Positions 8,771 through 18,278 of a stretch of 64,000 nt of DNA are shown piece by piece. Location of the stretch: positions 1 to 64,000 of the forward strand of contig NZ_JABEQK010000004.1 of assembly GCF_014174275.1 (NCBI RefSeq). The letters are read 5' to 3'. Both the position numbers and the translations under genes were made by a program. How positions within the stretch are numbered: position 1 is the stretch's first letter; each line of letters begins with the position of its first letter. A model generated the notes under the pieces. The model was not told the origin of the DNA, made no database searches, and saw only the letters and a program-made list of their open reading frames with translations. Source of the stretch: Gluconacetobacter takamatsuzukensis (lineage in GTDB: Bacteria > Pseudomonadota > Alphaproteobacteria > Acetobacterales > Acetobacteraceae).

Positions 8771-9964
8771 TTGCTGAGTTTTCTGATGCTGCAGGGGAAT
8801 GCCACGCCGTTCTTCTCCGAACTGGCGGTGGCGCTCCGGGCCGCCGGCCATCATGTCCGCCGCGTCGCCTTCAATGGCGGTGATGTCGTCTTTTCGCACG
8901 ACGTCACATGGTTTCGCGGCCGCCCGGACGCCCTGCCGGCCTTTCTCGAAAAGATCGTCGCCGCGGACAAGCCGGACGCGATCATCCTGTTCGGCGATTG
9001 CCGCCCGATCCATCTCGTGGCGACCGACATCGCCCGGGCGCGCGGCATTGCGATCTGGGTGTTCGAGGAAGGCTATCTGAGGCCGGGCTGGATCACGCTG
9101 GAGCCCCATGGCGTCAACGGATTTTCCGCCCTGCCGCGCGATGCCGCTGCCATCCGCGAACGGGGCAAGGCACCGTGGCCGGCCATGCACTACAATCCGC
9201 ATCCCGATTTCCTGCGCCGCGCCATCTACGACGTATCCTATCACGGGCTGCGCGTGGCCATGACGCCGCTGTTTCCCCACGCGCGCTTTCATGCCGTGGT
9301 CAGCCCCTTCGTGGAATATGCGGGCTGGCTACGGGACTGGACCACGCATCTGGTGCGCAAGCCGAAGGAGGCGACGCTGCCCGACGGTCCCTTCATGCTG
9401 GTACCGATGCAACTGGACGGCGACTATCAGTTGCGCGTCCATTCGCCGTTCCACAGCATGGCGGAGGCACTGGAACGCATCCTGGCCTCCTTCGCCGCCC
9501 ATGCGCCCGCATCCCTCTCCCTGGTTGTCCGCCGGCACCCGCTCGACCCGCGCCTGACCGACTGGGAGGGGCTGATCGGGCAGCACGCGCGCGCGCTCGG
9601 CATCGCACCGCGCGTCTATTTCATGGCGGACGGCCCGCTCGATCCCGTCCTGGACGCCAGCGAGGGGATCGTCACGGTCAACAGCACGGTCGGCCTGCTG
9701 GCGCTGCGGCGCAACCGGCCGGTCAAGATCCTGGGCGAAGCCATCTACGATGTCGAAGGGCTGACATTCCAGAATTCCCTCGATCGCTTCTGGACCGAGG
9801 CGACCAAGCCCGATGCCGAACTGCTGGACGCGTTCTGCCGCATGCTGATCCAGGAAGTGCTGGTCGAGGGAGATTTCTTCACCCCCGAGGGCCGAGCCCT
9901 CGCGGTCGAGGGCTCGGTGCGGCGGATCCTGTCGGCTTATTCCGACAGCGCGCGCAGTGCCTGA
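8771..9964 (+). CDS. KpsS-like capsule polysaccharide protein
   Basis: A KpsS/RkpJ-family protein of 397 residues with the N-terminal signature FLMLQGNATPFFSELAVALRAAGHHVRRV, then FNGGD, FEEGYLRPGWITLE near residue 97 and a C-terminal segment with VVRRHPLDPR and EGIVTVNSTVGLLAL. KpsS adds the first Kdo to phosphatidylglycerol in group 2 capsule assembly. I chose TTG at 8771 because homology begins there and a strong GAAGGGTGGGA ribosome site sits just upstream. An in-frame ATG at 8705 would add 22 residues of no recognisable character. Its 3' end overlaps the convergent oxoamine-synthase gene by 28 bases. Confidence 0.86.
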   Translation: MLSFLMLQGNATPFFSELAVALRAAGHHVRRVAFNGGDVVFSHDVTWFRGRPDALPAFLEKIVAADKPDAIILFGDCRPIHLVATDIARARGIAIWVFEEGYLRPGWITLEPHGVNGFSALPRDAAAIRERGKAPWPAMHYNPHPDFLRRAIYDVSYHGLRVAMTPLFPHARFHAVVSPFVEYAGWLRDWTTHLVRKPKEATLPDGPFMLVPMQLDGDYQLRVHSPFHSMAEALERILASFAAHAPASLSLVVRRHPLDPRLTDWEGLIGQHARALGIAPRVYFMADGPLDPVLDASEGIVTVNSTVGLLALRRNRPVKILGEAIYDVEGLTFQNSLDRFWTEATKPDAELLDAFCRMLIQEVLVEGDFFTPEGRALAVEGSVRRILSAYSDSARSA

Positions 9965-17200: not shown

Positions 17201-18278
17201 GCTCCAGATGCCCGAGATTGGTCTTGACCGAGCCGATCGGCAGCGGCGCGTCGCGCAACTGGCCTAGGGCGGTCCCCAGGGCCGTCGTCTCCACCGGGTC
17301 GCCGGCCTGGGTGCCGGTGCCGTGGGCCTCGACGAAGGCCACCTGGTCGGGCGAGACGCCCGCGCGCCCATAGACCTCGCGCAGCAGGTCCGCCTGCGCC
17401 TGGGCGCTGGGGAAGGTCAGGCCCGGCGTACGCCCGTCGGCATTGATCCCGCTGCCCATGATCACCGCGCGGATGTCGTCGCCATCCCGCCGGGCCGCCG
17501 ACAGGGGCTTGAGCAGCAGCATGACGCCGCCCTCGCCACGCACATAGCCGTCGGCATCGGCGCTGAAGGCATGGCAGCGGCCGGTCGGGGACAGCATGCT
17601 CGCCGCGCAGAAGCCGATGAAGGGGTAGGGCGTCAGCAGCATGCTGACACCGCCGACCAGGGCCACGTCCGTCCGGCCCGCGCGCAGATCCTCGCACGCC
17701 TCATGCAGGGCGAACAGCGACGAGGAGCACGCGGTATCGATGGTCATGCTCGGGCCGTGCAGGCCCAGCGCATAGGACACGCGGTTGGAGAAGATGCTCA
17801 GCGTATTGCCGGGCATGAAATAGGCATTGCCCGACGACGGGTCGGTCAGGCGCAGGTTGGCGTATTCCAGCCCCGACGCGCCGACATACACGCCGGCCGA
17901 CGCGATGCGGTCCGCCGTCGTGCCCGCGTCTTCCATGGCTTCCCACGCCAGTTCCAGCAGCAGCCGCTGCTGCGGGTCCATCTGCCGCGCCTCGCGGGCA
18001 GAAATGCCGAAAAAGGCGGCATCGAACAGTTCAATATCGTCCAGGGTCGAGGCCCGGGTAGCATAGAACTTGCCTGTCTCGCCGCGACGGGGGTGCCAGA
18101 AATCCCGCAGCGGAAAGCGGTTCTCCGGGATCGGACGCACGCTTTCGCGCTCCTCGTCCAGCAGCTGCCACAGGCTGGTGACGTCCGGCGCCCCGGGAAG
18201 GCGGCAGGATGCGCCGATGATGGCGATGGGCTCATCCCGAGTAGTGGTATTCGGCTCGGACGTCGAACTGTTATGCAT
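11223..18278 (-). CDS. Type I highly reducing polyketide synthase, KS-AT-DH-(MT)-ER-KR-ACP
   Basis: A 2351-residue single-module synthase. KS is about 15-435 (DTACSSS near 181, EAHGTGT, KTNLGH). AT follows (FSGNGSQFSGMG; GHSVGE near 619). DH is about 880-1170, with His near 918 in DHKVGDTIVLAA. A methyltransferase-like region (about 1230-1450) has LRVLELHADR where a SAM glycine motif is expected. ER is about 1630-1935 (HGAAGGVGLAAIQ near 1756). KR is about 1945-2120 (TGGTGGFGA; FSSA and GAYVAANA). ACP is about 2225-2290 (ELGMDSLTAVEL, phosphopantetheine Ser near 2256). No thioesterase is visible. It probably works iteratively, with release by the coupled oxoamine synthase. Start at MHNSSTSEPN by homology; no clear ribosome site, so this is uncertain. 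Rhizobial RkpA is the likely functional relative. Confidence 0.9.
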   Translation of the reverse strand: MHNSSTSEPNTTTRDEPIAIIGASCRLPGAPDVTSLWQLLDEERESVRPIPENRFPLRDFWHPRRGETGKFYATRASTLDDIELFDAAFFGISAREARQMDPQQRLLLELAWEAMEDAGTTADRIASAGVYVGASGLEYANLRLTDPSSGNAYFMPGNTLSIFSNRVSYALGLHGPSMTIDTACSSSLFALHEACEDLRAGRTDVALVGGVSMLLTPYPFIGFCAASMLSPTGRCHAFSADADGYVRGEGGVMLLLKPLSAARRDGDDIRAVIMGSGINADGRTPGLTFPSAQAQADLLREVYGRAGVSPDQVAFVEAHGTGTQAGDPVETTALGTALGQLRDAPLPIGSVKTNLGHLEPASGLVSMLKAMLALQNRRLPASLHCDNPNPAIPFGELNLEVVTEARPLGDGPLIAGVNNFGFGGANAHVILASAPVEPASVPAATVSDDAVPLLLSARSEAGLASLAQVWSTRSWTDSDLRGLATRRAHLPHRLGVPGGDAAEMRAALAAWVETRAHADVVTGQALAQARTVFVFSGNGSQFSGMGQDLLEISPVFAAGVAEADAALRPHLGWSVLEAMRAGDWSADPADVAQPMLFAFQIGVLRGLEQQGLKADIVVGHSVGEIAGAVHAGMLEIGEAARIVALRSRHQATAPGGGMIALHGDVEEARRLLAEAAPTVEIAAFNAPNALAVAGDAEALDRLEAAKDGSSLLVHRLKVGYAYHSSHMDRIADALIRDLGEITARRPDRLMISTVTSQPFTVLPDADYWWRNVRAPVLFAESVRQASADGGTVFVEISPRPVLQHYLRDILRGGDTQSRVMPAVPARITVDPFPRTALACFAAGCNILSASHFAGPAHVRGLPGVQWQRERHWYEPTEEALAVLWNQQGTHPLLGDHGKSDVSEWTAHLDGAVQPWLADHKVGDTIVLAAACLIEFAFTAARATWPDAQILELRDFQILRPVIIEQAQLREIRVRLSAEGAVTIDSRPRLSHAVWTRHATARAGLSPVAPAALPPADTDTDMTGDALYATARAAGLAYGPAFRRVGGISMAAGRVEATLTGDAPINGLTLDPTALDGTFQALVGLAVNHADAQSAEAPLPRKFGIIRLDLTAGAPARGQAAVTTSGPRETEADIVMLDASGRAVLSATGCWFTRMPGERPVPVAERTFHEIWLPSPVASAPLSDDRFLALRPAMETPAGDADDKDAGLLAHTILSGHPASAEEAPGEAPDLARLWQTLFLDLPQWLPAALLLAWVQEQKNAASNPEAARADEAFPDVAFRQLLSGRSVELAAEQIAATIGAYVRDWPQDRPLRVLELHADRAILTRQLAPRLAGLAGGLDYTILEPNRERQARLRPTVLAHLPGIVMAETVPEGVYDVLVAYAPGLHGMVPATTLAHADRLAPGGLILVAEAAEDAGWATLRDLSPEPLLTIAAWRDLPHRLRAVAESVPAQAPFPLALLAAVAVEAEEAEATAEAAAAPSLRLSHAPAQEDGEDETAWTARGMLALAADARAAAEAGECLAIVTRDTATTPHEAARVALGRTIANEFPALRCRRIDLSAALTETAVAAALEAERTATDDEREVRWTEDGRLVRRLREGLPARAEGAKTDVRLIQPVPGPLDRLCWMPEPRVEPGPRDVVIDVQASGLNYRDVLSAIGMLPDELLLDGFAGATLGMECAGTVLAVGSDVTDLAPGDRVMALAAAAHASRVVTDRRSVFALPEWLSFAAGATIPVTYLTVLYALETVGALRAGETILIHGAAGGVGLAAIQYASHVGARIIATAGSPAKRAALRELGIETVLDSRSLRFGADVLAATGGQGVDVVLNALSGEAMERSLELVRPFGRFLELGKRDFLANTRVGIGPLRQNVSYHAIDVDALVRHRPDLVSTVTDRLHALLEDGAVGPLPYTAFPASAATDAFALMRTSAHVGKIVLTMGPVHVPPTLEIPADRTVLVTGGTGGFGARAARWLVARGARHLVLVSRRGPAAENVAALRETLLEAGALTVEVRACDVTDRAALAALVAEIRATMPPLGGIVHAAVTVADGLVATLSEEQVTASVQAKLAGALSLDELTRDDPLSLFLVFSSATITLGAPGQGAYVAANAAVEAMIQRRRDAGLPGCAVRWGPIADAGFLERNEAAREALDRRLGARSMRSMAALDALPDLLASSDPWPVLAEMDWQATGSLPILSEPLFGAVARRRDEDSDTGDLMSLLATATEERREEIVADLILGELTRIMQTDREALPMDQPLAELGMDSLTAVELALGLERRLGVSLPGFAWQEMTVRRVARQVSTLLGNKGQGAAAATPDEAVMARHLSDEERHVVAEAGDAPGDAEAPEPALSNEEEATR

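Follow-up and report, generated by a model that had tools for sequence, protein, structure and literature searches.

A reducing polyketide synthase and an alpha-oxoamine synthase beside KpsS- and KpsC-like genes in Gluconacetobacter takamatsuzukensis: a plausible sphingolipid capsule anchor

The window analyzed here, 64,000 nucleotides long, is the first stretch of a 324-kb contig (NZ_JABEQK010000004.1) in the 3.78-Mb genome of Gluconacetobacter takamatsuzukensis. It includes a gene pair coding for a reducing type I polyketide synthase (PKS) and an alpha-oxoamine synthase (AOS) next to genes for KpsS-like and KpsC-like capsule proteins (Table 1). An initial annotation, made from the letters alone, had placed the pair inside the capsule locus and proposed that its product, a long-chain amino ketone like a sphingoid base, serves the capsule as a lipid. 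The KpsC-like and KpsS-like genes, both identified by PF05159, are indeed nearby, but the word "inside" was inexact. The pair is at the housekeeping edge of the locus, and beyond the PKS, away from the capsule genes, lie a split tRNA-Arg gene, holA and leuS. Since the two genes are on the opposite strand and tail to tail (convergent) with the KpsS gene, they are not in its operon. The gene set given at the time was also incomplete, as the PF00884 gene listed in Table 1 belongs to the locus and had not been named.

A comparison with Pfam identified ketosynthase (KS), acyltransferase (AT), dehydratase (DH), enoylreductase (ER), ketoreductase (KR) and acyl carrier protein (ACP) domains in the PKS, and no Pfam match to a thioesterase was found in it. 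This architecture agrees with that first described, except that the methyltransferase (MT) is only vestigial: an active one was ruled out because there is no Pfam match and motif I of the MT-like stretch is lost (ELHADRA versus EVGAG in the best-kept relatives). An alignment of 25 PKSs showed that the active-site residues of KS, AT, DH, ER, KR and ACP are retained in the window protein, including the KS Cys and both His, the DH His and Asp, the KR Ser and Tyr, and the ACP Ser, as are the cofactor motifs of ER and KR; these residues presumably have the catalytic roles usually assigned to them. The AT motifs are GHSVGE and YAYH, a signature that we take to be malonyl-like. The longest reading of the gene reaches 18446, and the internal ATG at 18278 (Met57), where the gene had been taken to end on the map, is a plausible start.

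The start and stop codons of the two genes overlap in the ATGA reported before (bases 11223-11226 on the coding strand). The nearest PDB relatives of the AOS are serine palmitoyltransferases (SPTs; E 4e-69), and its His169, Asp242, His245 and Lys277, presumably the residues that deal with pyridoxal phosphate (PLP), are invariant in the alignment. The NCBIfam models that the protein matched, SPT and BioF included, all gave scores short of their curated cut-offs; the score with the canonical SPT model NF047599 was 273 bits (cut-off 500). Separate members of the family are encoded elsewhere in the genome, namely an SPT (641.5 bits, cut-off 500), a BioF-like protein (425.0 bits, cut-off 426.45) and HemA, and therefore the window AOS is a fourth, specialised enzyme and not a housekeeping one. 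Four named Gluconacetobacter species have copies that share 95-96% identity with it, and the copy of a fifth shares 74%. In the AOS tree, which was rebuilt after removal of a row in the wrong reading frame (L133) and was made without SgaB, the AOS of Pseudomonas fluorescens MYb115, the window copy clustered with others in a group of 28 (support 93/92, just under the starred level) that takes in RkpG of Sinorhizobium meliloti and copies from Pseudomonas, Burkholderiales and Halomonas. A PKS match is nearby in 27 of these 28, the exception being L086. The SPT, BioF and HemA of the genome fell outside the group, on long branches of unsure placement.

Table 1. Features of the locus, with window coordinates
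Feature	Position	Strand	Basis
NAD-dependent sugar epimerase/dehydratase family	146..1216	-	Pfam
Predicted membrane-bound phosphoglycerol-transferase-like protein (lipoteichoic acid synthase / GacH / RkpI type)	1611..3107	-	PF00884
Glycosyltransferase family 4 (GT4) glycosyltransferase	3153..4427	+	Pfam
Putative NAD-dependent epimerase-like capsule-locus gene	4509..5522	+	Reading frame and clustering with the 146-1216 gene
KpsC-like, single glycosyltransferase (GT) module recognisable	5724..7403	+	PF05159 (E 3e-35); BLASTP
GT4 glycosyltransferase	7142..8689	+	Pfam
KpsS-like beta-Kdo (3-deoxy-D-manno-oct-2-ulosonic acid) transferase (initiator)	8705..9964	+	PF05159 (E 3e-75)
Alpha-oxoamine synthase (AOS), RkpG/SgaB/WcbT-like, SPT-like	9937..11226	-	Pfam; 429 aa
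Reducing type I PKS, KS-AT-DH-(vestigial MT)-ER-KR-ACP	11223..18446	-	Pfam; 2407 aa in the longest reading

The KpsS-like protein scored 231 bits with NF050054 (cut-off 600) and shares 39% identity with a KpsS-like protein encoded in a Pseudomonas capsule locus. The KpsC-like protein was aligned by BLASTP to two-module KpsC from residue 168 only, and a two-module organization was not found in it; one transferase module is apparently absent or has diverged strongly, and the Kdo linker may therefore be unlike the one in E. coli. A KpsT-, KpsM-, KpsE- and OPX-like export set is encoded at 272.6-276.7 kb of the same contig, about 260 kb from the KpsS and KpsC genes. The genome thus has a KpsS-like initiator together with a KpsT/M/E/OPX set, as expected for a group 2 capsule, with scores below the curated cut-offs for the KpsS and KpsE models. 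The second GT4 gene of Table 1 probably starts after 7403. GT4-type matches were found in 26/34 loci of the family set described below, and in many other Acetobacteraceae a homologue lies immediately upstream of the PKS gene. On the other side of the PKS, the tRNA-Arg(CCU) gene (18820-19127, minus strand) is interrupted in the anticodon loop by 231 inserted bases. The insert matches the group I intron family at 33.4 bits (E 9e-7), short of the gathering threshold (50). This split gene was overlooked by the standard tRNA scan, and an Rfam scan at gathering thresholds gave no match.

The genes around related pairs were compared in fetched stretches, mostly of 20 kb and some shorter. The family set consisted of 34 of the 43 non-own AOS-bearing genomes of a 150-genome Acetobacteraceae sample, with up to 20 kb each (G031, G035, G047, G076, G090, G105, G115, G120 and G128 were left out). 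Of the 577 loci confirmed in a scan of named genomes, the best 80 were taken, and this set is therefore biased to close relatives. A draw across the phylum contributed 20 of 24 non-own places (G056 was counted as family locus L066, and G339, G335 and G215 were left out), and an order-wide draw contributed 13 loci. A capsule gene, defined as a match of at least 100 bits to KpsS, KpsC, KpsM, KpsE or OPX within the stretch, was present in 27/34 family, 49/80 named, 8/20 phylum-draw and 8/13 order-draw loci. When a phosphoglycerol transferase was accepted as well, the counts were 27/34, 58/80, 13/20 and 9/13, respectively; the rates in the named and family sets lean high because the context queries came from these loci themselves. 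As a control, 20 stretches of 20 kb at round coordinates in five of the genomes were searched with the same queries. The KpsS, KpsC, KpsM, KpsE, OPX and transferase families were found in 0/20 at any score, and the weak or unrelated matches were to short-chain dehydrogenase/reductases (SDRs; 67-100 bits), GT4 (66), LpxC (134) and KpsT (59). The three further AOS copies of the genome (L074-L076) had none of these families around them either. By this control, the association of the pair with capsule genes goes beyond chance.

The PKS was clustered with the AOS in 76/80 named loci, and start and stop codons overlap by 4 nt in 46 of the 71 examined. Named capsule-type loci with the pair include those of S. 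meliloti pSymB, a Pseudomonas plasmid (L196, which carries KpsS-, KpsC-, KpsF-, KdsA- and KdsB-type genes), Paraburkholderia, Caballeronia and Shinella, and comparable surroundings are seen again in alpha-, beta- and gammaproteobacteria as well as Desulfovibrionaceae. In two plasmid records, from Planktothrix (L199:5569-13167) and Streptomyces (L198:8311-13134), the PKS and AOS matches are inside one annotated coding sequence. A fusion suspected in G127, with an open frame of 3000 aa, was rejected because the AOS and PKS matches of L055 are out of register.

Among the 150 Acetobacteraceae genomes, the AOS (E <=1e-90) was found in 44 and a PF05159 match (KpsC/KpsS family) in 58, one of which (G076) is short and weak. 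The latter occurred in 38/44 genomes with the AOS versus 20/106 without it (Fisher 7e-15), although this test, like the others on co-occurrence, ignores shared ancestry, which inflates all of them, and the acetic acid bacteria are probably one block in this respect. The AOS is within 5 kb of a full-length KpsS match in 29/44 genomes and at 10.6 kb in one more; in the remaining ones KpsS is far away or on another contig (seven) or has no full match (seven). The KpsC match is within 10 kb in nine of those 29 genomes, on a different contig or no closer than 25 kb in 19 (some contigs are short, so it may be nearer in a few of them), and was not found in one. A phylogenetic tree of KpsS showed that 21 of 26 linked proteins form a clade with RkpJ (support 100/99). 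Canonical SPT, called at E <=1e-150 with all scores above the curated cut-off, was also taken into account. Either this AOS or SPT was present in 54/58 genomes with PF05159 versus 29/92 without it, and among genomes that lack this AOS, SPT was found in 16/20 with PF05159 versus 23/86 without (Fisher 2e-5). Within the PF05159 genomes, SPT is present in 8/38 with the AOS and 16/20 without it; the two sources are nearly complementary. The window genome is one of the eight that hold AOS, SPT and PF05159.

The product of the PF00884 gene consists of a membrane part and a PF00884 domain with conserved Glu, Thr, His/Arg and Asp-His motifs, whose residues we take to have the roles known in this family. 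A family profile covering this protein and its S. meliloti homologue at the rkpI position gave GacH (5wcx, E 1e-32) as the best match, followed by LtaP and LtaS, and a Foldseek search with a model of the window protein (mean pLDDT 78) returned GacH, LtaP and LtaS in the top ranks. The protein is predicted to be a phosphoglycerol transferase of the GacH/LtaS type. In Halomonas, Methylococcaceae and Desulfovibrionaceae, PKS-AOS repeatedly have an SDR and a PF00884 gene as neighbours. Several relatives carry a gene of an amine-modifying type between AOS and KpsS, either a PF00551 formyltransferase or a GNAT-like one; in the family loci the formyltransferase was found in 14/34, GNAT in 11/34 and SDR in 10/34. 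The PF00551 gene follows the AOS in several groups (L058:8415-9209, L044:10652-11599 and others) and was present in 8/13 order-draw loci, hinting at N-formyl sphingoid lipids. In two Burkholderiales records a gene for an LpxC-family deacetylase is located between PKS and AOS (L197:12881-13795, L221:12904-13830). One Acetobacteraceae locus (L065:4822-13708) has GNAT, SDR, AOS, phosphoglycerol transferase, KpsC, KpsS and GT4 genes with no PKS seen, as if its AOS were fed by ordinary acyl chains. An RkpH-type SDR was not seen at the window locus. Contig C3 holds the genome's best SDR, which shares 39% identity with a linked SDR and whose gene adjoins that of a GNAT; this couple was rejected as a dedicated partner of the AOS, as relatives of the GNAT occur in 62/150 family genomes and the linked GNATs are 31-37% identical to it.

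We hypothesized that the PKS iterates malonyl units and that a long saturated chain grows on its ACP. As a PLP enzyme of the SPT type, the AOS would condense this chain with an amino acid (serine, most likely) under decarboxylation and so release it as a very long-chain 3-ketosphinganine, the ketone of which would be reduced by an SDR; the amine may then be acylated or formylated by enzymes that are linked in relatives and not here. The resulting sphingoid lipid, possibly with a phosphoglycerol headgroup, would be the membrane acceptor for the first Kdo added by KpsS. It would thus anchor a group-2-like capsule that KpsC and the glycosyltransferases extend and the KpsTMED-like set exports. The analysis establishes the gene content, the retention of active sites, the family ties and the recurrent linkage; serine as the substrate here, the headgroup step and the use of the lipid by KpsS are steps that we infer. 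The scheme draws support from the intact active sites of a PKS that has no thioesterase, the ATGA overlap, the single coding sequences in Planktothrix and Streptomyces, the SPT-like AOS and its place in the group with RkpG, the linkage and co-occurrence counts, the RkpJ clade, the KpsTMED-like set of the genome, and the action of KpsS, which sets the first Kdo on (lyso)phosphatidylglycerol before extension by KpsC (PMC10148158). The predicted chemistry has a precedent, since SgaA (PKS) and SgaB (an AOS with SPT activity) were reported to make C24-C28 sphinganines (PMC12134224, 2025), and this part of the initial proposal was strengthened accordingly. We consider it probable that the pair makes a long sphingoid base, and regard the chances that this base feeds the capsule, as KpsS acceptor or as anchor, as evenly balanced. 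A wider proposal, possible although doubtful, is that the anchor works as a phosphoglycerol sphingolipid that replaces phosphatidylglycerol in much of the group-2-like capsules of alpha-, beta- and gammaproteobacteria. The PKS, AOS and SDR would then make sphinganine, a GacH/RkpI-type transferase would add the phosphoglycerol head recognised by KpsS, N-formyl- and N-acyltransferases would tune the amine, and lineages that lack the PKS would use SPT. If this were true, the probable phosphoglycerol sphingolipids of MYb115 would be capsule-anchor precursors, and the lipid genes of rkp-1 and of the Burkholderia wcb locus would be explained together.

A number of observations weigh against a role of the lipid in the capsule. 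At the window locus PKS-AOS and KpsS are not co-transcribed and no SDR or N-modifying gene is linked, and the window KpsS is outside the RkpJ clade, on the side of the tree with KpsS from genomes that lack PKS-AOS. The acceptor used by the KpsS of E. coli is phosphatidylglycerol (PMC10148158). The poly-Kdo of S. meliloti is called phospholipid-anchored in the title of an article in a reference list, and according to a review, a Burkholderia strain without the wcbR-containing region made less capsule, not none. Besides the shared ancestry behind the co-occurrence, 20/58 Acetobacteraceae with PF05159 lack this AOS, six AOS-bearing family genomes have no PF05159 match, and neither capsule gene nor transferase was found in the fetched stretch of 7/20 phylum-draw and 22/80 named loci, 14 of the latter from Methylobacterium/Methylorubrum. 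These 22 loci, as well as the KpsS units that exist without PKS-AOS, favor the explanation that PKS-AOS make a free or membrane sphingoid lipid, a barrier or a secreted effector, with the capsule built on ordinary phosphatidylglycerol and the genes linked because both are surface functions. The sphinganines made by SgaAB act on the host, and the main text of that report mentions neither KpsS nor capsule (PMC12134224). A free lipid is nonetheless unlikely in our view: KpsS accompanies the AOS in 29/44 Acetobacteraceae while KpsC is elsewhere in 19 of those 29, the KpsS proteins of 21 linked loci cluster with RkpJ, and similar neighbours are found across alpha-, beta- and gammaproteobacteria and Desulfovibrionaceae.

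The headgroup step of the proposed anchor has a competitor of its own, in which the transferase-like gene decorates the capsule polymer or its linker with glycerol phosphate and is unrelated to the PKS-AOS lipid. GacH, the nearest solved relative, adds glycerol phosphate to the group A carbohydrate. Loci were compared for 18 of the 20 PF05159 genomes that lack the AOS (G074 and G087 were left out), and in 16/18 the gene accompanies KpsC-KpsS; one of the loci where it was not found (L298) is a 6.9-kb contig. The unit of transferase, KpsC, KpsS and GT therefore does not require PKS-AOS, and the transferase lost value as a marker of PKS-AOS capsules. Conversely, the gene was found in 0/21 RkpJ-clade family loci within the fetched stretch, which is short in two of them, and this absence slightly lowers the odds of the anchor and of its wider version; all five other linked family loci on the KpsS tree carry it. 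Since transferase units occur without PKS-AOS and RkpJ-clade loci occur without transferase, neither part is strictly dependent on the other. The catalytic domains of GacH/LtaS-type enzymes are periplasmic and KpsS is cytoplasmic, so a headgroup added in this way would need a flip of the lipid, a further difficulty for the anchor. On the other hand, the gene directly adjoins the PKS, with an SDR, in Burkholderiales and Halomonas, MYb115 most likely makes phosphoglycerol sphingolipids (PMC12134224), and 54/58 PF05159 genomes have some sphingoid-base synthase. Decoration is, on balance, rather unlikely, and it is compatible with the anchor, as the PKS-AOS lipid may still be the KpsS acceptor without a phosphoglycerol headgroup. 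AOS families also differ in the amino acid that they use, which the sequence does not reveal here, and an enzyme that takes alanine or glycine would yield an amino ketone of the 1-deoxy or nor type, which might act as a diffusible signal. This is very improbable, given that the nearest solved relatives are SPTs and SgaB is almost exclusively serine-preferring (PMC12134224); a free 1-hydroxyl would also be the natural site for a headgroup.

The sphingolipid anchor can be compared with several known systems. In the rkp-1 region of Sinorhizobium, the PKS and AOS genes have the order and overlap seen in the window, and their products are 37-41% and 48% identical, respectively, over the aligned parts. 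The genes for PKS, AOS, SDR, a PF00884-type protein and a PF05159 capsule protein stand in a row on S. meliloti pSymB, in agreement with the rhizobial likeness noted at the outset. The PF00884-type gene was found by homology, with no such annotation in the record, and the rkp letters, which the record itself does not carry, are those that we presume from gene position. The window differs from rkp-1 in that the pair is convergent with KpsS, no SDR is linked and KpsS belongs to another lineage. That rkpA and rkpGHIJ make a carrier or anchor lipid has already been proposed (PMC3557214, PMC4881576). The capsule-lipid role suggested by the initial annotation draws its support only from gene context, and the idea is not new. 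Among the open-licence papers listed, no title or abstract opening connects a PKS and an oxoamine synthase with capsule, or KpsS with a sphingolipid and a PKS.

The sgaA-sgaB(-sgaC) genes of MYb115 code, like those of the window, for a monomodular iterative PKS and an AOS; the comparison was made by description, without the MYb115 sequence, and a MYb115-like genome was not found in the order-wide draw, where the best identity was 60%. The SDR SgaC is the proposed reductase, no enzyme appears to be assigned to the phosphoglycerol sphingolipids, and 6101 homologous SgaAB pairs were counted, mostly in Burkholderia (PMC12134224). Their product was reported as a host-protective metabolite, in a main text that does not deal with KpsS or capsule (PMC12134224). 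In the Pseudomonas capsule plasmid L196, the step from the AOS gene to the SDR gene is the same as the locus-tag step from sgaB to sgaC, which is a lead only. By analogy with this plasmid, a GNAT, a member of the LTA synthase family and a KpsC-type gene may be present between sgaB and sgaC. The AOS gene of Burkholderia capsule I is, we presume, the one named wcbT. The published list for this capsule includes an acetyltransferase, AOS, LpxC-like deacetylase, the PKS WcbR, a sulfatase-like membrane protein, SDR and KpsS, and its order, compared from the list and not from sequence, is that of the Paraburkholderia locus L197. Unlike the window, wcbR-wcbT has the LpxC-like deacetylase between PKS and AOS, plus the acetyltransferase. 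The canonical alphaproteobacterial SPT shares enzyme family and reaction type with the window AOS and is a separate copy in the genome; the SPTs of Rhodobacteria take acyl-AcpR loaded by AasR, not a PKS chain (PMC9386255).

A sphingolipid anchor for the capsule is plausible. If it were confirmed, sphingolipids, thought to be uncommon among bacteria, would underlie many of the capsules found in symbionts, in bacteria associated with plants and insects and in some pathogens, and a second acceptor of KpsS would exist in nature. Both the chemistry and the idea of a carrier were known before; what is new here is that SgaAB-type chemistry and the rkp-type capsule-lipid question are brought together. 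The lipid made by rkp-1, or in Burkholderia by WcbR and its neighbours, has been suspected to be a capsule lipid carrier, and joining it to the chemistry of SgaAB provides a concrete structure to seek at the reducing end of the capsule.

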